DNA from: Deltaproteobacteria bacterium
Lineage (GTDB): Bacteria; Desulfobacterota_B; Binatia; UBA9968
DNA: 9,842 nucleotides
Assembly: GCA_027297485.1 (NCBI GenBank)
Contig: JAPUHZ010000441.1
Location: 1-9,842 of the forward strand
Direction of reading: 5' to 3'
How positions within the stretch are numbered: position 1 is the first letter of the stretch; each line of letters opens with the position of its first letter. Below the pieces are notes generated by a model, which saw only the letters and a program-made list of their open reading frames with translations, had not been told where the DNA came from and did no database searches. A program made the translations under genes and the position numbers. Shown here piece after piece: positions 1-9,842 of this stretch.

Positions 1-729
1 CATCTGCTCCTCGGGAGGCTCTTGGCGGTGCACCAAGGCGAGAAAGATTCCGAGGACGGCATTACCGAAACGAACAAAGAAGTGCGTGTTGGGCCGGGGG
101 AGGCGTCTCTTCTGCTCCATGGTCGTATAGCGCTGGTCCCAACGCCTGGTTCCCGGCGCCACTTCCTCTTTCCCCTCGCCCCAGAGCTTTGCCCGCTTGT
201 AGTCTGCAGTGTTCCAGCCAACCCGGTGATCGACAGGCAAACCCAGTGCCTTCACGTAAAAGTCCTCTGCCCACTCCAGATCACAGCTCTCCACAGTAGC
301 GTGGTCTATGCCCTGGACTCTACCGGTTGCCTCGAAATTAGCTTTGGAGGCGACTAACTGAACGCGGTTTCCGTCCGGGTCATAAAAATAAAAGTTGTCT
401 TCTGCCTCGGACGGACGGTCCTCCCTGTAGGTGTGAATATCGATGCTGCGTGCGGCCAACTTTTTGGAGACAGCTGCCCGTTCAGCAGGCGCGATTCTGT
501 AAGCCTGATGGACACCGGTTTCGGGGAGAGATCTGGGCGCGGGACTCTCCGAGAGGATAAGATAATCATTTCCTGCGGTTTTCATGAGGAGGCTTCGCTC
601 ACAGTCAGGCCAAAGGTCATGCCCGGCCGGTTCGAAGCCAAGCACCGTACGATAAAATTCCTCCCCCCGTTTTAGGTCAGAGACTTCAACGACGAGGTGG
701 CTCATCCCCTCAATTTGGAGTTTACCCAT
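1..729 (-). CDS. Two-domain VOC (glyoxalase/extradiol dioxygenase fold) protein, C-terminus cut off by window edge
   Basis: The frame is open for 243 codons from the ATG at 727-729 to the left edge, with no stop, so the gene continues outside the window. Two VOC domains are visible. The first (about residues 8-130) begins SHLVVEVSDL, with the first metal-ligand His at H11, a second candidate at H74 (VHQAYR) and the DPDGN turn at 117-121. The usual glutamate ligand after that turn is Gln124 (NRVQLV). The second domain starts around residue 139 (GIDHATVESCD, H143) with a second His at H216 (THFFVRF); its last ligand region is not in the window. Two VOC domains in one chain is the layout of type I extradiol ring-cleavage dioxygenases, which fits the oxygenase genes upstream. 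The substrate is unknown, and the Gln in domain 1 argues that only domain 2 may be catalytic, as in those enzymes. No good Shine-Dalgarno precedes this ATG; the ATG at residue 9 is an alternative start. Confidence 0.85.
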   Translation of the reverse strand, partial: MGKLQIEGMSHLVVEVSDLKRGEEFYRTVLGFEPAGHDLWPDCERSLLMKTAGNDYLILSESPAPRSLPETGVHQAYRIAPAERAAVSKKLAARSIDIHTYREDRPSEAEDNFYFYDPDGNRVQLVASKANFEATGRVQGIDHATVESCDLEWAEDFYVKALGLPVDHRVGWNTADYKRAKLWGEGKEEVAPGTRRWDQRYTTMEQKRRLPRPNTHFFVRFGNAVLGIFLALVHRQEPPEEQM

Positions 730-784
730 GGATAGCCGATAGAGCTGAAAGCAGATCGCTAACCCGAATTGTTCACGCCGGAGT

Positions 785-922
785 CCCTTCGTGTGCAAAT
801 CCTTTCGGCCCCACGCAATGATTCTCTACCTCGAGGGCCGCCCACGCCAACCCCTTGAGGTGCTGACTCCCACTGTCCAGGCCTGCCGACGCCCTTCTTG
901 TCCCTGTGCGTGCGGCCTTCAG
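785..922 (-). repeat. Diverged intergenic repeat, copy 1
   Basis: This 138-bp stretch aligns without gaps to 1532-1669. I counted 34 mismatches by hand, so about 75% identity. The best-conserved core is CTCGAGGGCCGCCC plus the following CGCCAACCCCTT, allowing one A/G change (830-855). Weaker similarity may extend to about 943. Differences between the copies fall on all three positions of the only shared reading frame (about 14, 9 and 11), so the element does not look like a gene under selection. In this copy that frame has stops just upstream (TAA TGA). The copy occupies most of the 277-bp gap between the VOC genes at 1-729 and 1007-1474; I see no gene, terminator or clear promoter in the rest of that gap. 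It could be an old mobile-element remnant or a family of intergenic repeats. Confidence 0.7.
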
Positions 923-1006: not shown

Positions 1007-1474
1007 TTACCCTACATTTCGGACGTAGGGTTTAGGATAATTTACATCTTCGTCGCGGCGCCAGAGGATCTCGAGGAAATTGCCGCTTGGATCCTTGAAG
1101 TAGATCGACTGGCCGAAAGGGCTCTTCTCTGGGTGTTCTACCGGGCCTTCAAAAGCGATCTCTCTCTTTTTTAACTCTTCCATAGTCTTGTCAAACCGGT
1201 TGTGTGAGACGCGAAAGGCGTGGCGAAAACCGTGCGCGCCACGATGCTGATCGGAAGCAGGCATAGGCATGAAGTCCCGTGGCACCATGAGTGCCAGGAG
1301 GTAGTCCTCCAAAATGATAGAACCGTGGACGGACCTTCCCCGCAGGGCGTCATCGGTCTTAAAATTGACGCGGGTCCCTTGGTGCGCACCCAGGACATTG
1401 CAATAAAAGTCCTCGGCCTCTTTCAGGTCGTGAACGCAGATAGCACTGTGACTTAGACTCTCGACATCAGCCAT
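1007..1474 (-). CDS. VOC family protein (single domain, glyoxalase/bleomycin-resistance/dioxygenase fold)
   Basis: The protein is 155 residues, the usual size for a single VOC domain that would act as a dimer. It begins MADVESLSHSAICVHDL and carries the expected ligand set: H9, H85 (FRHAFRV) and E135 after the DPSGN turn (NFLEILW). A complete His/His/Glu site suggests a working divalent-metal enzyme, for example an extradiol-type dioxygenase, isomerase or glyoxalase-like protein; the substrate cannot be read. The start was placed at 1474, not at the ATG 18 bp upstream, because AAGGAGG sits at 1482-1488, seven bases before this ATG, and itself lies within the longer reading. Its C-terminal region (NYPKPY) overlaps a small direct repeat. 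The gene stands alone between two copies of a diverged repeat, so it may have its own transcript. Confidence 0.88.
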   Translation of the reverse strand: MADVESLSHSAICVHDLKEAEDFYCNVLGAHQGTRVNFKTDDALRGRSVHGSIILEDYLLALMVPRDFMPMPASDQHRGAHGFRHAFRVSHNRFDKTMEELKKREIAFEGPVEHPEKSPFGQSIYFKDPSGNFLEILWRRDEDVNYPKPYVRNVG

Positions 1475-1481
1475 ATCTCTA

Positions 1482-1488
1482 CCTCCTT
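1482..1488 (-). promoter_or_regulatory. Ribosome binding site that fixes the start of the VOC gene at 1474
   Basis: A perfect AAGGAGG Shine-Dalgarno core on the minus strand lies seven bases from the ATG at 1472-1474. It decides this start over the upstream in-frame ATG at 1490-1492, which would place the ribosome site inside the coding region. Confidence 0.75.
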
Positions 1489-1531
1489 CCATCTTTTTTG
1501 ACTAATACCAGCTACTGAAGTCGTGATAGAT

Positions 1532-1752: not shown

Positions 1753-2562
1753 CTATACCTTTTGAACGTCAGCTGCGCAGAACTCCGCCCCGCAAGTTCC
1801 GGGAACGACCTGATCGGGGCTATAGCCCTTGCGGATGATAGCCACTCCGGTATCTACCACGATAGACCCGTCCTCGGCGATCGTTACGGGATTCAGTCTC
1901 AAAGGACCGACGTCCGGCATGTGGCCGGTAAATTCCCCTTTGCGGTTGTAAGTGGCCCCGTGGAACGGGCAATAAAAACGCCAATGCTCCTTTTCCCACT
2001 TGATCTGTCCGTTTTTGTGGGCGCACCAGCGGGAGAGCGCCAAAAAACCTTCTTCAAGCCGCACTAAAAAAAACATTCCTTGGTTGAACGGAGTGACCGA
2101 GCCTACCTCGAAGTCCTCAACTTTGCCGCAGGTCACCTGGCCGGCGCTTGGCTTGATAATCCGCTTGGCCTCTGGGCCATAGGCCTGGACCTGATAGCGG
2201 TGTCCGTCCGGATCAAAGACATCCATACTCCTCTCCCCCAAGGCCCGAAACTGTGCGCGGCTGTCGTCGATATCGACCCCAATGGTCTTTAGCCTTTGCT
2301 GGGCACGCTTGTACTGCTCGACGGTAAGTAGCCAGGCATGGTGGATGCTGCTGCTGTTGGGTCGGAAGGGTTCCACATTAGGGACCTGGACCAACAGGAC
2401 CATCTGACCGCTGTTCATTTTGAGAAGCGAATTGGGCCCCTCTTCCGTGACGAGATCTCTCCCGATAGGGTCGAGTCCCAAGATCTCTTGATAGAATTTC
2501 TCTGAGCGGTCTAGGTCCGTAACCTGAACCACAAGATGGCTGAATCCATCGACCAGGGACAT
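1753..2562 (-). CDS. VOC-Rieske fusion protein: N-terminal VOC domain joined to a C-terminal Rieske [2Fe-2S] domain
   Basis: The protein has 269 residues in two parts. Residues about 7-128 are a VOC domain: FSHLVVQVTDL with H9, the His pair H74/H75 (IHHAWLL) and the DPDG turn at 117-120. The usual glutamate ligand is Gln124 (YQVQAYG). After a short linker, residues about 141-250 form a ferredoxin-like Rieske domain with all four cluster ligands: C180-A-H182 (WCAHKNG) and C198-P-F-H201 (YCPFHGATYN), 15 residues apart. The C-terminal tail (about 250-269) adds two cysteines, C257 and C262, of unknown role. Rieske domains of this kind pass single electrons, for example to ring-hydroxylating oxygenases, and one such oxygenase is encoded upstream at 3866-5002. 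A built-in electron donor for that enzyme is an inference. The start at 2562 has GTGAGG five bases upstream and lies 18 bp after the previous VOC gene, so the two are likely co-transcribed. The reading frame runs uninterrupted through the junction, so this is not two neighbouring genes. Confidence 0.88.
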   Translation of the reverse strand: MSLVDGFSHLVVQVTDLDRSEKFYQEILGLDPIGRDLVTEEGPNSLLKMNSGQMVLLVQVPNVEPFRPNSSSIHHAWLLTVEQYKRAQQRLKTIGVDIDDSRAQFRALGERSMDVFDPDGHRYQVQAYGPEAKRIIKPSAGQVTCGKVEDFEVGSVTPFNQGMFFLVRLEEGFLALSRWCAHKNGQIKWEKEHWRFYCPFHGATYNRKGEFTGHMPDVGPLRLNPVTIAEDGSIVVDTGVAIIRKGYSPDQVVPGTCGAEFCAADVQKV

Positions 2563-2580: not shown

Positions 2581-3066
2581 TTAATTTTCCTTCCAGCCGT
2601 AGGTGCGGCCCATTCCGCCATACTGGGCGCCCCGCTTGGCAATCTCCGCCTCGTAGGCAGCCTTGTCGGGGAACTTGGCCGTGACTTCGAGTCCATATCC
2701 ATCCGGGTCCTTAAAGTAGATGGAAAGTCCCGTGCCCCCACCATGGGCCTTGGGGCCGTCGTAGGGTATGTCCATCCGCTTCAGTTGTTCCTGGACGCTG
2801 TCCAAATCGGAGGGCTCAATCTCAAAGGCGAAATGGAGGTGGCGGATGTCGGTCTTGGGAGGGCTGTCCGGCTCCATCTGAAAAAGGTCAAAGCCAAAGT
2901 TTCCTACTTTAACCAGCGTGTGCTTCGATCTTTTGGCGGCCTTATCCTTCTCGTTCTGACCACGGCTGCGGCCGATCTCCCCGTCAAAAACCTCCTGATA
3001 AAATTTCACCGACCGTTCGAGATCGGTAACGACAAAGGCAAGATGGTCCACTCTCTTAAGTTTCAT
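2581..3066 (-). CDS. VOC family protein (single domain)
   Basis: The 161-residue protein begins MKLKRVDHLAFVVTDLERS, a textbook VOC opening. Candidate metal ligands are H8, H78 (RHLHFAF; H76 is an alternative) and E127 after the DPDG turn (GYGLEVTAK), so the metal site looks complete. An insertion rich in Lys and Arg (about residues 33-48) and a C-terminal extension of about 30 residues distinguish it from its neighbours. The function could be dioxygenase, glyoxalase-like or isomerase; sequence alone does not decide. The start is well supported: GAAGGGGG at 3075-3082 lies eight bases before the ATG. It is the first gene after a 97-bp gap with a promoter candidate, and the VOC-Rieske fusion follows 18 bp later. 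Confidence 0.9.
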   Translation of the reverse strand: MKLKRVDHLAFVVTDLERSVKFYQEVFDGEIGRSRGQNEKDKAAKRSKHTLVKVGNFGFDLFQMEPDSPPKTDIRHLHFAFEIEPSDLDSVQEQLKRMDIPYDGPKAHGGGTGLSIYFKDPDGYGLEVTAKFPDKAAYEAEIAKRGAQYGGMGRTYGWKEN

Positions 3067-3163: not shown

Positions 3164-3859
3164 TTAAGTCGTCCCTTGTTTAAGATTATTCCGCAGAAAA
3201 TCCATCATCCTTATCCAGGCGTTTATGGTCTCCAAGTGCCGATACTCCGACCGAGTCTCGTTGGCAAATCCATGAGGAGCGCGAGGATAAATTTTAATGT
3301 CGAACTGTTTGCCATGCCTACGAAGCAACTCCTCCAGATCATGAACCGCGCTGGGTGGCACGGCTTTATCGTCTCCACCGTAACTCCCCAGGATGGGGCA
3401 TCGAAGCTTCGTCAGCTCATCCAAAGGATCAGGATTCCGTCCGTAGTAAACCACCGCGGCGTTGAGCCTGGGATTTTGGATCGCCCATTGAAGGGATAGG
3501 GTCCCTCCCAATCCGTATCCCACGGTCCCAACTTTACCCGTAGCGTTCGGTTTATTCGCCAGGCATTGATAAGCGGCGTTGAGGGTTGCCAGCATCCTGG
3601 ACTGAGGAACTTCTCGATAACGGGATTGGCCTTCCTCAGGTGTGGCAGCGGTTTTTCCCAAAAATAAATCCGGGGCAAGGGCGATGTAATATTTCGTTGC
3701 CAATCTCCTGCAGAGTCCTTTTACCTGATCAACAAGACCCCATATGCCGTGGATCAAAATCACCCCAGGGTATTGTCCCGGAGTACCGGGCTCTGCTAGG
3801 AAGCCACGGGCCGGAGGCTCGTCGTTAGCCGGGAGCTCGACATACGAAATTTTAATCAT
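3164..3859 (-). CDS. Dienelactone-hydrolase-fold alpha/beta-hydrolase lacking the catalytic nucleophile
   Basis: The 231-residue protein has the length and order of the dienelactone hydrolase family, whose members open dienelactones to maleylacetate in the modified ortho pathway of chloroaromatic breakdown. Seen here: strand plus oxyanion region PGVILIHGIWGL (31-42), the LAPDLF segment (61-66), the nucleophile elbow GYGLGG (114-119), the acid loop GGDDKAVP with likely Asp164, and the catalytic His196 in PHGF. The elbow normally reads G-x-C-x-G-G or G-x-S-x-G-G, but here the nucleophile position is Gly116 (codon GGA). The glutamate expected in the family's I-H/Q-E-I-F/W-G motif is Gly39 (GGC). 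Two of the key residues are therefore glycine, which argues against normal hydrolase activity. It starts 6 bp after the Rieske oxygenase stop, so it is very probably translated with it. It could be a ligand-binding or accessory protein, or an enzyme with altered chemistry. Confidence 0.87.
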   Translation of the reverse strand: MIKISYVELPANDEPPARGFLAEPGTPGQYPGVILIHGIWGLVDQVKGLCRRLATKYYIALAPDLFLGKTAATPEEGQSRYREVPQSRMLATLNAAYQCLANKPNATGKVGTVGYGLGGTLSLQWAIQNPRLNAAVVYYGRNPDPLDELTKLRCPILGSYGGDDKAVPPSAVHDLEELLRRHGKQFDIKIYPRAPHGFANETRSEYRHLETINAWIRMMDFLRNNLKQGTT

Positions 3860-3865
3860 CGGACT

Positions 3866-5002
3866 TCAGTTTACCTGGATCAGCTCATCCTTGGCGTCGA
3901 CGCAAATCAAGTTGTTTTTTCCTGGGTCCCTGATGATCCCCGGAGGATCCTCGCCTCGCTCGACCGCGTCGATGGCTTTCTTAAGAATGTTGCGCCACAT
4001 GATGACGCCGCGGTCCGAGCTTCCCAAATGTTCCTTGGTCCTGTCTTGAATCGGTCCCTGGCTCATTTGGGCCTCCTCATCTCCCGGATCTCTCTGGCTC
4101 TCTTCATAAGATCGGACGCCTCTACGGTCCACGGAAGCTCGGTTGACCACTCCTGAGCCAAAGACCTCTTCGGTGGGCTTGCCGTCTTTGCCGAAGGGGA
4201 TGAAGAAAAGTTCAAAGGTGCGCGTGTGGGTATCATCGATCGGCACCTTCCAGGCGGCCCGCTGCGCGCACTCAACACCGTGTTCGCGTCTCATCGAGCC
4301 GGTGGTTTGGAGCATGGGTACCATGAAATGGTTCGTCCGGCGGATGATGGTCCCCGGTTCATGACCGGCACGATCCGCTACGGTGATCATGCCGTACTCT
4401 GCCGGAGTAAATGTGCAGTCGGGGATCTCGTAGAAGTCCATTCCAAATTGGTGCTCGTGGAGAATAGCGGTATGCATGGTATCAGCGTGGTTTTCGGATC
4501 GCTGGAGGTAATTGCCCTCTCCGGTCCTAACCGTGATCTTTCTTATTCCGTCCTGCCTGACCAAAAAGCTGTAATTAGGTAAAAGAGAGATCTTTTCAAC
4601 CGGCCCCATGTAGGCAAAGGCTAGGCCCCCTAATTCTCGACAGGGATAGGCCTTGTGTCTGATGGTCTTCTTAAAATTGCTGTCAGGAGGTTCCAGAGGC
4701 TGATCCAGACAATGGCCGTCAATATCGTAGAGCCAGCCATGATAACAACAACGGATGCCTCGTTCCTCAACGCGACCATACTCCAAAGAGGTGCCCCGGT
4801 GGCTGCAATGTTTTTCCAGCAACCCCACCCTCCCTTTGGTGTCGCGAAAGAGAACAAGCTCCTCACCTAAGACCCTGACCAACTTAGGCAGGTCCGTCAG
4901 CTCTTCACTGATCCCGACAGGGATCCAGTATCGTCGCATCATCTCACCGCCCGGTGTTCCCGGTCCGACTCGGGTTAGTCTTTCGTTTTCCGCTTCAGTC
5001 AT
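3866..5002 (-). CDS. Rieske non-haem-iron aromatic-ring-hydroxylating oxygenase, alpha subunit (phthalate-dioxygenase-like)
   Basis: The 378-residue protein is a Rieske oxygenase catalytic subunit, which uses O2 and two electrons to hydroxylate or demethylate an aromatic substrate. The Rieske domain (about 25-130) holds C66-S-H68 (HCSHRG) and C85-C-Y-H88 (CCYHGW), 16 residues apart. The mononuclear iron site is seen in E170-N-H-A-D-T-M-H177 with H182 four residues on; Asp174 matches the residue that relays electrons between subunits. The third iron ligand is probably Asp308 in the block before SQGPIQDR, followed by EHLGSSD (324-330), a stretch characteristic of the phthalate 4,5-dioxygenase/vanillate demethylase type. 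That type is usually a homo-oligomer needing no beta subunit, and none is present. It sits 21 bp after the cupin gene and 6 bp before the hydrolase-fold gene. No reductase or separate ferredoxin is in the window. The ribosome site is weak, and the substrate is not predictable from sequence. Confidence 0.93.
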   Translation of the reverse strand: MTEAENERLTRVGPGTPGGEMMRRYWIPVGISEELTDLPKLVRVLGEELVLFRDTKGRVGLLEKHCSHRGTSLEYGRVEERGIRCCYHGWLYDIDGHCLDQPLEPPDSNFKKTIRHKAYPCRELGGLAFAYMGPVEKISLLPNYSFLVRQDGIRKITVRTGEGNYLQRSENHADTMHTAILHEHQFGMDFYEIPDCTFTPAEYGMITVADRAGHEPGTIIRRTNHFMVPMLQTTGSMRREHGVECAQRAAWKVPIDDTHTRTFELFFIPFGKDGKPTEEVFGSGVVNRASVDRRGVRSYEESQRDPGDEEAQMSQGPIQDRTKEHLGSSDRGVIMWRNILKKAIDAVERGEDPPGIIRDPGKNNLICVDAKDELIQVN

Positions 5003-5023: not shown

Positions 5024-6118
5024 TTATTCGGCTCCCGTGCATCGTGAAACCATGGCCTTCATCTTACAGCGGACACCCGACCGGTCCAGCTCATGTTCAT
5101 AAAGGCCGTGGATCTCCGGATCTTCATTCTCGTATTCAATCTGGTTTCCTCCTTCTTTCACATTCTTGGCCTGCCCCTCGGTGTGGAGCGCCTTGATGAA
5201 CTCGTATTTGTGAGGACTCCAGTGGAATGCGAGATAGCGTGCCGGAGACTCTCCGATGTTGAAGTGCTGGTGAAACCACATTTGCGGTGGCACGAAAAGA
5301 CTGCCTGCTTGCCAGTCCACCCGGGTTCTCTTTTCCCCCTCCTGCCAGAGAAGGGTGTAGCCCCGGCCGCTGAGAATAACGATCTGAAAGCCGGCGCCAT
5401 GACGATGGGCTTTTTTGTAGGTCCCTACCGGGAACTCCGAGACATGGCTCGCCATGGCCCCGTCGGAAAGTTCAAAGTGCATGTTTCTCGATCTCCCGCC
5501 CCGGTTCACTTGATCAAGCACACGGAAGGTCTGCACATCCGATATGAAGTTACTTTCCCAAATGCGGCCTGGATACTCCCTTCCATTGCCGCTGAAATAG
5601 TTCTCCTCTCCGTGAAAGCGGCTAGAGAAAACGTAGGGGTTATTAAACACGAAGTCGAGGTCGTGAAAGAGGTTTAAGACGACCGGTGCGTTGGTCACGG
5701 CCAAGAAGCGCACCGGCTCTTCGCCCTGTCCGTTGAAATGTTCGTGCCAGGCATTGAGTGGGATGGCAAAGTGGCTCCCCACAGACCACTCGAAGGTTCG
5801 TTTCGGTTTTCCATCCTGCCAAACGGCAGTTGCACCCTTACCTCTGAGAATATAAATCATCTCTTCGATCATGAAGCGCTGAGGGTTTAGTGTTCCCCCG
5901 GGGGGAATCTCACAGAGATAGGCGCCTGTGGCTCCCCCTGCTCCTTCAAGCTCGATAAAAGCGCCAAGTCCGCCCTTGCGCTTCCAAGGGGCCAACCCCA
6001 CCTCCATAAGGTCGTCAACGAAAAAGCCCCGCAGGATAGGGATCCCCTCTGAGCGCATAAAATCTTCATAGAAATTGACGCGTCTTAATTCCCCTTTGTT
6101 GATGATAGAATTTGCCAT
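5024..6118 (-). CDS. Bicupin protein (two cupin domains), possible metal-dependent dioxygenase
   Basis: The 364-residue protein contains two beta-barrel cupin domains, like gentisate dioxygenase and related ring-cleaving bicupins. The N-terminal cupin (about 64-150) has the PGGTLNPQ motif start, but the His-x-His metal pair is replaced by Gln80 and Phe82. The glutamates E85/E86 and the second-motif histidines H125 and H127 (WHEHFN) remain. The C-terminal cupin (about 225-300) looks functional: H238-R-H240 after the GTYKKA turn, Gln245, and H283/H285 in WFHQHFN. The matching W-H-x-H-F-N ends of both halves indicate an internal duplication. I infer one working metal centre, probably Fe(II), in the C-terminal half. 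The gene lies 38 bp after the ABC ATPase and 21 bp before the Rieske oxygenase, consistent with a catabolic role. An isomerase or a regulatory or binding role is also possible. No strong ribosome site precedes the chosen ATG, and an ATG at residue 21 is an alternative. Confidence 0.87.
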   Translation of the reverse strand: MANSIINKGELRRVNFYEDFMRSEGIPILRGFFVDDLMEVGLAPWKRKGGLGAFIELEGAGGATGAYLCEIPPGGTLNPQRFMIEEMIYILRGKGATAVWQDGKPKRTFEWSVGSHFAIPLNAWHEHFNGQGEEPVRFLAVTNAPVVLNLFHDLDFVFNNPYVFSSRFHGEENYFSGNGREYPGRIWESNFISDVQTFRVLDQVNRGGRSRNMHFELSDGAMASHVSEFPVGTYKKAHRHGAGFQIVILSGRGYTLLWQEGEKRTRVDWQAGSLFVPPQMWFHQHFNIGESPARYLAFHWSPHKYEFIKALHTEGQAKNVKEGGNQIEYENEDPEIHGLYEHELDRSGVRCKMKAMVSRCTGAE

Positions 6119-6156: not shown

Positions 6157-7257
6157 TTAGCCGCGTATGGCCCGGCAGTACTGCGGGGGAAGTTTCAGGT
6201 GAACGGTGGCGTTGCGCTGAACCGGAGAAGAGGGATGAAGTTTCATGCGCACTTTCTGGGAGCCGACGGTCACCTGGCATTCCAGGGTCTCGCCCATGAA
6301 GATCACCGCCTCGACTTCCCCCTTTAAGATGTTCTCTCCTTGGATGGAGTTCCCATCGACGAGATTGATGTCTTCAGGGCGGACTATGACCACCACGGAT
6401 TCTCCTGCCTCCACGCCTTTCGGAAGAAGGCACTTCAGCATACCACCGGGAGTCTTCACCTCTCCTAATCCGCTGTTGTCCGAGGGCGTTCTTATGACCT
6501 GTCCCTCTAAAAAGTTGGTAAGGCCGATAAAGTTGGCCACAAACCGCGCTTGGGGAGACTGGTAGATCTCTCTGGGAGTGCCTTCTTGAACGATTTTTCC
6601 TTGATCCATAACGGAGACGATATCGGACATGGTCAGCGCCTCCAACTGGTCGTGGGTGACGTAGAGGGTCGTGATCCCAAGGCGCTTAACCAATTCGCGC
6701 AGCTCAAAGCGGGTCTCTTCTCTCAGTTTTGCATCCAAATTGCTCAGGGGCTCATCCAGGAGAAGTACCCGCGGTTCTTTGACCAGAGCGCGGGCCAGGG
6801 CCAGCCGCTGCTGCTGGCCGCCGCTCAGGAAAGGTGCCGGGCGATCCTCCAGGCCATCGAGCTGGACTAAAGAGAGGGCCTGTCGCACCTTGGTCCGGAT
6901 CTCGTCCCGGGAAAATCTCCTTCGCATCTCTTGCAAAGGAAAGGCGACGTTCTCAAAGACATTCATATGCGGCCAGATCGCATAGGACTGAAAGACCATG
7001 CCGATGTCTCTTTTGTATGAAGGAATGGAGATCTCTCGAGAGGACGAAAAGACGAGATCATCGCCGACAAAGATTTCCCCATCCCGGGGTATCTCCAGAC
7101 CGGCCACGGAGCGGAGCGTTGTTGTCTTGCCGCACCCGCTGGGACCGAGCAGGGTGTAAAACTGTCCCTGTTGGACCTCAAGGCTGATGCCGCTCACCGC
7201 ATCCACTTCGCCCCGTTCCGTTTCATAGCGCACGTGGAGATTTTGGATCCGGATCAT
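6157..7257 (-). CDS. ABC importer ATP-binding subunit (FbpC/PotA type, with TOBE domain)
   Basis: This 366-residue ATPase powers the importer encoded with it and acts on the cytoplasmic face of the membrane. All nucleotide-binding motifs are intact: Walker A GPSGCGKTT (38-46), Q-loop Gln90, signature LSGGQQQ (144-150), Walker B LLLDEP (165-170), D-loop SNLD (172-175) and H-loop His202 (THDQ). After about residue 245 comes a C-terminal regulatory region with the VIVRPEDINLV stretch typical of TOBE domains in iron, polyamine and thiamine-type importers. The start at 7257 was chosen because its ATG overlaps the permease stop (ATGA); the frame stays open 126 bp further upstream, but that stretch is permease coding sequence. 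A missing aromatic stacking residue or other defect is not evident. The family name does not settle the substrate. Confidence 0.95.
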   Translation of the reverse strand: MIRIQNLHVRYETERGEVDAVSGISLEVQQGQFYTLLGPSGCGKTTTLRSVAGLEIPRDGEIFVGDDLVFSSSREISIPSYKRDIGMVFQSYAIWPHMNVFENVAFPLQEMRRRFSRDEIRTKVRQALSLVQLDGLEDRPAPFLSGGQQQRLALARALVKEPRVLLLDEPLSNLDAKLREETRFELRELVKRLGITTLYVTHDQLEALTMSDIVSVMDQGKIVQEGTPREIYQSPQARFVANFIGLTNFLEGQVIRTPSDNSGLGEVKTPGGMLKCLLPKGVEAGESVVVIVRPEDINLVDGNSIQGENILKGEVEAVIFMGETLECQVTVGSQKVRMKLHPSSPVQRNATVHLKLPPQYCRAIRG

Positions 7258-9008
7258 GCCCCACCTATTTGCGCGGCGTGCCTGCGGAAGCCGACAAAGC
7301 GGACCAATAAAGTGAGCAGCAATAGGGAGATCATTAGCAGGGTTCCAATAGCCCCCACGGCCCCTATATACCCATCGTCCCACATGTTCCAGATCAGGAT
7401 GGCCAGGACCTGATTTTTAGGCCCTTCGTAAAGCATCAGCGGCATGCCGGCGATGCGCACCGCATGGAGCACCACCCAGATCCAGACCCCCACAAATGTA
7501 GGCAGCATCAGTGGGAAAAAGACGCGCCATAGGGTGCGCCACGGTGGGGCGCCGCTGAGATAGGCCGCTTCTTCCAGCTCCTTGTGGATTTGCAGGATGG
7601 ACGCATTCATGGAGCGGGTGCCGTAGGAGATAAAGTTGACCGTAAAGCCGATCGATATGGCCCAGATAGTGCCGTAAATAGGAATGAAATCCAACTTGAG
7701 GAAGACCCAGAAAAAGGCGAGCCCCATCACGATCCCCGGGATAGCATGGGGGACGAAGGCCAACTGATCCAGTAATCTTCTCCCCCAGAATTTGCTACGG
7801 ACCACAACCAGGGAAATAAAGAAGGAGAGCGCCGTCGTCGCGGTCGCCGTCACCACCACCATGATGACGGTATTCTTTAATGCCGACCCCACATCCCCAT
7901 AATCGCTCAGGAAATAATAGTTTTGTAAAGTTAACTGGTTGAGGACCTTCCAAGACGGGACTTGAAGATAGGAAAGAAAAGAGGTGTAGAGAAAAACCAA
8001 AAAGGGCAGAACAACGGAAAGCAGAAGGTAGACCACGACTAAAACAAGCGCAGGATAACGCCAGGATCCCAAATCCATTTGGCGTGGGCGATAGCCCTTT
8101 CCCGTAATGATCGTATACTTCTCTGACCGGTCGATCATCCGGGCATAGAAATAGGTGGTGACTACTGCGATGGCCAGATAGACCATGGCCAAGGCGTTTG
8201 CCTGTCCGTAGATAGGGATAAAGGTGGCCGAGTGAATGATGGTGTATATCTTTGTGCTGAAGACATAGATGCCTGCCGGGAGACCGAGGATGCCCGGCAC
8301 CTCAAAGACCTCAAGGGCAGTCATCGCCTGATAGATCATCACGGCAACAAGCCCAGGGGCCAGGAGTCTCATGCTTACTTTGCGAAGGGTGGACAAGGGT
8401 CGGGCGCCTGAGACGGCCGCTGCTTCCTCTAACGCGGGGTCCATGCTGCGTAAGAGGGGGACCAGCATGAGAAAAGCGGTGGGAACCAAACGTAACCCTT
8501 CAATAAAGATCATCCCGCCCAGCGAATATATGTTGATCGGCGCCTGATCGAGACCAAAAATGCCCATGAGCATTCTGTTGATAAACCCAATGCGGGGACT
8601 TAGCAGGAGGACCCAGGCCATGGCCTGGAGCATCCCGGGGACAGCCAGGGTCATCGGGATCCCGGCATACACGAGCACCTTCCACGGGAGATTGGTACGC
8701 TCGACCAGCCAGGCTAGGGAGGCTGCGAAGGCGATGCCCACAACAACGCTACCGAGAACATAGATGACCGTGTTCGTAAAAAGCTGGTAAGTCCCCGGAT
8801 CAGAATAAACCGTGGTATAGTTTATTATTCCTGTAGTGGAAAGCGAGAATTCAGTAGGCAGTTGTGCCGTACTGAAACTCCCGAGAATGAGGAAGAACAA
8901 TGGGGCAAAAACGAAGCAGGCAACCAGAAGAAAAACCAGCCAACACCACGGGTTGGAGGAGTTGTACCTGATGAACCTATGGGAAGCCGGTTTTTCCCCT
9001 TCCATCAT
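7254..9008 (-). CDS. Fused ABC importer permease with two transmembrane domains (FbpB type)
   Basis: The 584-residue protein has two permease halves in one chain, which is the architecture of iron(III) (FbpB/AfuB) and thiamine (ThiP) importers. Each half carries an EAA loop that docks the ATPase: EEAAAVSG at 194-201 and EEAAYLSG at 479-486, both followed by the usual Leu-Pro or Ala-Pro segment. Hydrophobic segments are clear at about 22-44, 80-102, 112-136, 165-186, 217-238 and 270-290 in the first half, and at about 320-342, 378-402, 415-437, 445-463, 500-520 and 550-572 in the second, so roughly twelve membrane helices are expected. The hydrophilic start (about 20 residues) fits a cytoplasmic N-terminus. 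The gene begins 28 bp after the binding-protein stop, and its stop overlaps the ATPase start. The ribosome site is weak, so translational coupling is likely. The substrate is not fixed by the permease. Confidence 0.94.
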   Translation of the reverse strand: MMEGEKPASHRFIRYNSSNPWCWLVFLLVACFVFAPLFFLILGSFSTAQLPTEFSLSTTGIINYTTVYSDPGTYQLFTNTVIYVLGSVVVGIAFAASLAWLVERTNLPWKVLVYAGIPMTLAVPGMLQAMAWVLLLSPRIGFINRMLMGIFGLDQAPINIYSLGGMIFIEGLRLVPTAFLMLVPLLRSMDPALEEAAAVSGARPLSTLRKVSMRLLAPGLVAVMIYQAMTALEVFEVPGILGLPAGIYVFSTKIYTIIHSATFIPIYGQANALAMVYLAIAVVTTYFYARMIDRSEKYTIITGKGYRPRQMDLGSWRYPALVLVVVYLLLSVVLPFLVFLYTSFLSYLQVPSWKVLNQLTLQNYYFLSDYGDVGSALKNTVIMVVVTATATTALSFFISLVVVRSKFWGRRLLDQLAFVPHAIPGIVMGLAFFWVFLKLDFIPIYGTIWAISIGFTVNFISYGTRSMNASILQIHKELEEAAYLSGAPPWRTLWRVFFPLMLPTFVGVWIWVVLHAVRIAGMPLMLYEGPKNQVLAILIWNMWDDGYIGAVGAIGTLLMISLLLLTLLVRFVGFRRHAAQIGGA

Positions 9009-9036: not shown

Positions 9037-9842
9037 TCATCTCCTTTCGCGCGGTTCTCCTCCTCCCGCTAGCCAAAGCTTGTTCCAAAACTTGAGCAGC
9101 TTGGGCTGAATGTCTACCTCCATACCGGGGTCCCTGAAACTGATTTTTTTACCTAATATCGCGTCCGGAAAAGGCAGATACTGTTTGCCTCTAAGATCCT
9201 TATGAACAGGAGGGGCGAAATTGACTACATATTGGGCTATCTGTCCCTCCTTACTCAGAAACCAGTTAATAAAAAGTTTGGCTGCGTTCATGTTGGGCGC
9301 GCCCCTTAGAATAGTCATTTCGGACACAGCCACAGGCACGGGTTCAGGGCAAGTCCATCCAATTGGCGCTCCAAGTTTCACCTTTTGTAGCGCACGGTAG
9401 CCTCCTGCAGGGACATTGCCGTGGAACTCTCCCACTATGGTGAGCCCTAACATGGCGTTCATACCCTCTTTGCGGAGCTGGGGCTTGACCTCGGTAAAGA
9501 GCTTGGTGAGGAAGTTTTTGGTCCATTCTTCTCCCTTGGCCTTCCACAGCATCAGCGCCCACAGTTGGGCTCGATTGCCAAGGGCGAGGTTGCCGTTTCG
9601 CCACCTGGGATTGCTAAGGAGATCTTCCCATTTTTTGGGCAGATCCTCTTTTTTAACCAACTCCGTGTTATAACCCATGCACCAATAGCGTAAGTGCATC
9701 CCAACCCAAAAACCATCCGGGTCCTTGGTGCCTTCCGGATTATTTTTCCAGTTAGGAATATCCCGGAGGTCCTCCAGGCCGTTGGCTTCTCGAAACAAGA
9801 AGTAGGATCCACCCACACCGGTCAAGATATCGGTGACGAGCC
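9037..9842 (-). CDS. ABC importer substrate-binding protein (SBP_bac_6/FbpA-like), N-terminus beyond window
   Basis: Only the C-terminal part is present: about 267 residues, open to the right edge with no start needed inside the window. The signal peptide or lipoprotein signal and first lobe are missing. Recognisable family features are the YNTELVKKEDLPKKWEDLL block (typical of iron- and putrescine-type binding proteins), the RWRNGNLAL strand, GWTCPEPVPVAV in the hinge region, and the AAKLFINWFLSKEGQ helix (roughly residues 185-199 of the fragment) near the end. The paired tyrosines that bind iron in FbpA-type proteins are not apparent in the matching region, which reads AGGYRALQ with a single Tyr. 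I therefore lean towards an organic ligand rather than ferric iron. The protein is presumably exported and delivers its ligand to the permease 28 bp downstream. Confidence 0.9.
   Translation of the reverse strand, partial: LVTDILTGVGGSYFLFREANGLEDLRDIPNWKNNPEGTKDPDGFWVGMHLRYWCMGYNTELVKKEDLPKKWEDLLSNPRWRNGNLALGNRAQLWALMLWKAKGEEWTKNFLTKLFTEVKPQLRKEGMNAMLGLTIVGEFHGNVPAGGYRALQKVKLGAPIGWTCPEPVPVAVSEMTILRGAPNMNAAKLFINWFLSKEGQIAQYVVNFAPPVHKDLRGKQYLPFPDAILGKKISFRDPGMEVDIQPKLLKFWNKLWLAGGGEPRERR

Follow-up and report, generated by a model that had tools for sequence, protein, structure and literature searches.

A gene on the minus strand of a 9,842-nucleotide stretch of a Deltaproteobacteria bacterium assembly (GCA_027297485.1, contig JAPUHZ010000441.1; the whole stretch is referred to as the window) was found to encode a VOC domain and a Rieske iron-sulphur domain in one chain. 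Both domains belong to known families and the fusion family is uncharacterised; that the fusion is real and forms a conserved family is well established. The explanation that we prefer, tentatively, is that the protein would be a redox component, with a fixed two-domain build, in a catabolic module of VOC proteins, exchanging electrons with a VOC-bound metal. The cluster is placed in exchange with a VOC metal because the cluster site, the metal site and the VOC neighbours are constant among relatives, whereas a neighbouring Rieske oxygenase is variable.

The fusion and its conservation

The VOC-Rieske gene is one continuous frame of 269 amino acids with an ATG start (2562..1753); the plus strand at 1753..2562 is interrupted by stops. 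Residues 7-124 match the Pfam Glyoxalase family (PF00903, 1.5e-12) and residues 161-219 the Pfam Rieske family (PF00355, 1.2e-06), both above the gathering score. A preliminary description of this DNA, made from the letters alone, had proposed such a single frame and named H9, H74, H75, Q124, C180, H182, C198 and H201 as its key residues, all of which are indeed present at those positions. With a Pfam score over the cut-off and the VOC fold in one half, and the CxH...CxxH cluster ligands and the Rieske fold in the other, the protein belongs to both superfamilies. An AlphaFold2 model (mean pLDDT, the predicted local distance difference test, of 89.5) gave domains that match solved VOC structures and solved Rieske structures separately, and no match spanning both domains was present among the 50 listed of 1068 Foldseek matches. 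The gene and its two halves are as follows.

1753..2562, minus strand: VOC-Rieske fusion gene, 269 amino acids (frame; Pfam Glyoxalase and Rieske; 366 homologues)
2149..2562, minus strand: VOC half, residues 1-138, with candidate metal ligands H9, H74 and Q124, the last being E in four paralogues (FosA alignment; conservation; tree)
1756..2148, minus strand: Rieske half, residues 139-269, with ligands C180, H182, C198 and H201 and without the bc-type disulphide cysteines, G185 and F200 standing in their place (Pfam; conservation)

A protein search, which took candidates of 0.55-1.75 times the query length only, returned 366 fusion homologues. These rule out an assembly or frameshift artefact, and the question raised beforehand of whether relatives carry two separate genes was thus answered in favour of a true fusion. 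The 120 listed homologues share 92% to 57% identity with the query over 81-100% of its length, and 113 of them have both precomputed Pfam domains. They are named, for example, 'VOC family protein' or 'Rieske Fe-S protein' in the databases, and none of the papers listed by searches of open PubMed Central describes a VOC-Rieske fusion. Among these close relatives (n = 121, the 120 listed homologues plus the query) the Rieske ligands are nearly invariant (C180 and H182 in 121/121, C198 and H201 in 120/121), as are the VOC residues (H74 and Q124 in 121/121, H75 in 120/121, H9 in 119/121). An extra cysteine near the domain junction, Cys145 (window 2128-2130), is likewise invariant in all 121. Whole-genome searches at a threshold of E 1e-40 gave a second set of 46 fusion genes in 12 genomes of Alphaproteobacteria and Chloroflexota, with 1-14 copies each and counted apart from the window gene; position 145 is Ala or Met in 12 of these 46.

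Searches with either half alone, limited in candidates by the same length rule, gave 29 matches for the VOC half and 13 for the Rieske half, or 41 different proteins, 13 of which were inspected by sequence. Eight of the 13 are parts of fusion proteins, either truncated or shifted: P0052, P0121, P0124 and P0128 continue beyond the VOC half before the sequence diverges, P0131 diverges within the VOC half, and P0147-P0149 begin within the VOC half and contain the Rieske half. P0156, P0159 and P0160 are bc/b6f-type Rieske proteins with an export leader recognised by eye. P0125 and P0129 stop after the VOC half and may be true single-domain copies or contig ends. Within the scope of these searches, a recent fusion with free-standing halves was rejected.

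Candidate metal site and type of Rieske domain

When the VOC half was aligned with FosA (1npb), H9, H74 and Q124 lined up with the His, His and Glu that we take to be the FosA metal ligands. H74 is present in 45 of the 46 genomic copies (the remaining one is cut short) and H9 in 41 (four have no residue there, one has Lys); at position 124, 41 copies have Q, four have E and one has R. The preliminary description had left the metal histidine as H74 or H75; H74 is the likely one because it aligns with the FosA His and only 35 of the 46 have H75. Judged by alignment and conservation, a metal site in the VOC half, with Gln as the usual third ligand, is likely. One Q-to-E change on the tree, although weakly supported, covers all four E rows, so a repeated change at 124 is unneeded; L070, L076:7975, the duplicate gene (L086:19015/L087:1015) and L086:9291-10046 are absent from this tree and from the comparison of halves given below.

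The fusion differs from single VOC proteins of the FosA/FosX and ChaP types (PF00903) both in its third position, Gln (Glu in four paralogues), and in carrying a Rieske domain. Membership of the Fos fosfomycin-resistance family was rejected at 20-32 bits against NCBIfam curated cut-offs of 170 or more; lying far below every listed Fos cut-off, the protein therefore gives no sign of being a resistance enzyme. Dioxygenases of the VOC type use a His/His/Glu metal set, and the 2-His-1-Glu site of extradiol and hydroquinone dioxygenases does not occur in the fusion protein, the third position being Gln in 121/121 close relatives and in 41/46 genomic copies, with Glu in 4/46. The VOC enzyme ChaP is mentioned as acting with flavin-activated oxygen (PMC12281474).

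The VOC half might instead only bind a substrate or product while the Rieske half donates to an unlinked oxygenase. A comparable case is that of the P450 DoxA, where the VOC protein DnrV binds the product and SpFdx4, a Rieske-type ferredoxin, supplies electrons, the two serving one reaction as separate proteins (PMC12979805). Such a role is very improbable for the fusion, given how well its metal-site residues are conserved (119-121 of 121 close relatives).

The best solved relatives of the Rieske half are bc/b6f Rieske proteins. Matches of ferredoxin type are weak (0.00081 for the HcaC type; 5.8e-05 for 3gce with a profile), and the HcaC-type model ranks first for three divergent paralogues. 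From these matches the Rieske half appears to be at least as close to bc/b6f Rieske proteins as to oxygenase ferredoxins, and the label 'ferredoxin-like' that it had first been given is not favoured. Compared with the bc1/b6f proteins (9rk4, kuste4569 of Kuenenia; PetC), the fusion has no export leader visible by eye at its N-terminus, its Rieske domain sits behind a VOC domain, and its main group is without the extra cysteines; in the last respect it is like the Rieske-type ferredoxins of oxygenases (HcaC, CarAc), which have no extra disulphide either. Neither cysteine of the bc-type pair occurs in the window protein (G185, F200), G185 being found in 121/121 close relatives and no Cys at 200 in any of them.

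The bc-like features raise the question of reverse flow, in which a hydroquinone, catechol or enediol would be held at the VOC site through its vicinal oxygens and would give up electrons to the Rieske cluster, much as happens with a bc-type protein at a quinol site. Besides the solved relatives, three independent Rieske relatives with a single domain (P0156, P0159 and P0160; models for the first two) belong to the bc/b6f type, the fold of the double-VOC protein encoded nearby is close to a hydroquinone dioxygenase, and both extra cysteines are present in 7/9 divergent paralogues among the genomic copies. They are present, however, in 0/37 of the others, the main group that includes the window protein being without them; missing extra cysteines lower the potential of a Rieske cluster and make it a poorer electron acceptor. 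As no acceptor gene is apparent either, reverse flow seems quite unlikely.

Gene neighbourhood

Genes around the 46 copies were identified by codon-scored calling of open reading frames with tblastn seeds, over 10 kb on each side as far as the contigs reach, many contigs being short. In 43 of the 46 the next gene downstream, on the same strand, is a VOC gene, and a double-VOC gene usually follows that. One of the remaining three is followed by another VOC-Rieske gene, one is without a VOC gene directly behind, and one, itself cut at its start by a contig end, has an opposite-strand frame behind it. Within 10 kb, a single-VOC-like gene was found near 44 of the 46, part of an importer near 40 and a double VOC near 38, followed by M24/creatinase-type (23), cupin (11), Rieske oxygenase (10), UbiD (10) and amidohydrolase (9) genes. 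For the 17 well-flanked copies (at least 7 kb on both sides) the counts are importer 17, single VOC 16, double VOC 15, M24 11 and oxygenase 4. The M24/creatinase-type protein (L080:4569-5786 and 21 relatives) recurs near the module and is not among the window frames.

Distances among the fusion proteins track those of the single-VOC partner (r 0.82, 35 pairs) and of the double-VOC partner (r 0.87, 28 pairs), and distances in the VOC half likewise follow those in the Rieske half (r 0.75, 44 rows); 0/2000 permutations were as high for each of the three, shared descent contributing to the r values.

In the window the fusion gene is part of a cluster of ten frames, all on the minus strand. The other nine are listed below.

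1..798, minus strand: double-VOC protein truncated at the window edge, with its start at 798 or at 729; usually the second partner downstream (Pfam; neighbourhood; fold of a relative)
1007..1492, minus strand: single-VOC protein; usual direct downstream partner (Pfam; neighbourhood)
2581..3066, minus strand: further single-VOC protein (Pfam)
3164..3859, minus strand: dienelactone-hydrolase family protein (Pfam DLH, 3.3e-46)
3866..5002, minus strand: Rieske oxygenase, phthalate-dioxygenase-like (Pfam Rieske, 2e-17; best solved relative 7fhr, 7.8e-55)
5024..6118, minus strand: double-cupin protein, weakly like 5-aminosalicylate/gentisate dioxygenases (profile matches)
6157..7383, minus strand: ABC importer ATPase (profile matches; codon scoring)
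7254..9008, minus strand: ABC importer permease (sequence match)
9037..9840, minus strand: solute-binding protein, cut by the window edge (sequence match)

The ATPase frame, with its start at 7383, overlaps the permease frame (7254-7383), and codon scoring places the start further in, giving 366 amino acids. The upstream single VOC (2581..3066) is separated from the fusion gene by 18 base pairs (2563-2580) and is not constant elsewhere, being labelled near 1/46 fusion genes. The gap between the fusion and the downstream single VOC (1007..1492) is 260 base pairs in the window against less than 60 in most relatives; it contains a minus-strand frame of 75 amino acids (1502-1729) with no Pfam match. 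In the single-VOC partner family H9 is kept in 36/36, H85 in 31/36 and E135 in 35/36; these counts and the gap lengths include the window, count one gene twice (L086:19015 = L087:1015) and miss L086:9291-10046.

The double-VOC partner is similar in fold to 2,6-dichlorohydroquinone 1,2-dioxygenase, 1zsw, 3oaj, GLOD4 and maize glyoxalase I. It differs in its conserved ligand candidates, H82, Q132, H149 and Q222, which stand instead of the dioxygenase His/His/Glu set. The constant adjacency of the VOC partners could also be read as a sign that the fusion re-reduces Fe(III) in a neighbouring single or double VOC, its own VOC half being a docking module and not an enzyme. The model for this would be XylT, which reactivates catechol 2,3-dioxygenase, although no paper describing it was among those listed by searches of the open literature. 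Identity between the VOC half and the double VOC's first half is about 28-36%, so one could dock in the place of the other. We nevertheless hold an XylT-like reactivase to be unlikely, for H74 and Q/E124 are conserved beyond the needs of docking and the iron-dioxygenase nature of the double VOC is putative only. A gene cluster without the xylT ferredoxin gene is noted in PMC6362003.

The preliminary description had chiefly proposed that the Rieske half could donate electrons to the oxygenase at 3866..5002; on that reading the VOC half would be a passenger or substrate handler. The two genes are on the same strand of the same cluster, and no other electron carrier was seen among the window frames; the ten identified frames also agree with its statement that no reductase is encoded in the window. 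The best solved relative of this oxygenase, 7fhr, is a putative phthalate 4,5-dioxygenase, and the protein matches carbazole dioxygenase as well (1.6e-13), a type tabulated with a [2Fe-2S] ferredoxin, as some phthalate dioxygenases are with a [3Fe-4S] ferredoxin (PMC2358900). The phthalate dioxygenases of B. cepacia and P. putida, however, are tabulated there without a ferredoxin and with an FMN (flavin mononucleotide)/[2Fe-2S] reductase only (PMC2358900). In the suggested check of co-occurrence, the domain order was found in 366 proteins and a Rieske oxygenase near 10/46 of the genomic copies. In one of these ten (L058) the oxygenase gene is directly upstream on the same strand at 22 base pairs, and there is none within 10 kb of 36/46 (many on short contigs) or of 13/17 well-flanked copies. 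Set against the VOC gene directly behind in 43/46, and with the solved relatives of the Rieske half being bc/b6f proteins, this count leaves the proposal weakly supported, and we consider it decidedly unlikely.

HcaC and CarAc exist as small proteins on their own, served by a dedicated reductase, whereas the Rieske domain here is fused and has no match of two reductase families nearby. In the 12 genomes, where only these two families were sought and many contigs are short, there are 7 matches to Reductase_C and 24 to NAD_binding_1, and only 1 of the 31 is on a fusion contig, about 81 kb away. G008 and G428 are without either family, perhaps from incomplete genomes.

Proposed role, distribution and significance

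Electron transfer coupled to the VOC half, which had been the second idea of the preliminary description, fits both the conservation and the gene neighbourhood, and the constant VOC neighbours hint at a metal enzyme with a built-in electron carrier. The proposed module would comprise the VOC-Rieske protein, a single VOC and a double VOC, usually beside ABC importer genes. The Rieske [2Fe-2S] cluster would pass electrons, drawn from general cellular reductases, to a mononuclear metal in a VOC site, which may be the fusion's own H9/H74/Q124, completed by dimerisation, or that of the VOC protein encoded next door. This would serve oxygen activation, or would keep iron ferrous, during the oxidation of an imported, probably aromatic, compound. 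The metal's identity, the direction of electron flow, the substrate and the formation of a complex with a partner are as we infer them. The likeness to Rieske non-haem iron oxygenases would lie in one chain with a Rieske cluster and a mononuclear metal site, the fusion differing in that its metal domain is a VOC domain placed N-terminal to the Rieske domain. A Pfam search found no ring-hydroxylating catalytic domain in the fusion, which therefore does not qualify as an oxygenase alpha subunit.

A more far-reaching form of this proposal, which we regard as doubtful, is that Rieske-coupled mononuclear metal enzymes evolved a second time, independently, in these proteins, the cluster having been taken from a bc-type Rieske protein and fused so as to feed a metal site of VOC fold. 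The paralogues, up to 14 per genome and mostly with their own VOC/double-VOC partners and importers, would then attack different imported compounds.

At the E 1e-40 threshold, fusion genes were found in 3/385 genomes in the class of G001 and 8/11 in the order of G121, and in 4/400 in the phylum of G008 and 3/16 in the order of G575. The 11 loci of a pattern-limited scan comprised nine on contigs of metagenome-assembled genomes (MAGs) named as Alphaproteobacteria, Rhodospirillales or Rhodospirillaceae, the other two loci lying in a single Chloroflexi MAG; 2/120 listed database matches were named as Gemmatimonas MAGs, and there was no plasmid match for the fusion. G575 (Chloroflexota, about 3.9 Mb) has 14 VOC-Rieske genes (L034, L036, L040, L042, L045, L047, L049, L051-L057), several of them near family-5-type solute-binding proteins. 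In L086 two VOC-Rieske genes stand in tandem (7164-7958 and 7954-8778), sharing a few bases, and have a VOC gene upstream.

Iron-sulphur clusters are, to our knowledge, not found in VOC enzymes, and a single catalytic fold is known for Rieske-coupled oxygen activation. The VOC-Rieske family, conserved and with fixed VOC genes alongside, offers a concrete case in which a second Rieske-coupled solution can be tested, and it may explain how certain VOC enzymes stay reduced. An uncharacterised catabolic module is also indicated for Alphaproteobacteria and Chloroflexota, so far known here from MAGs.
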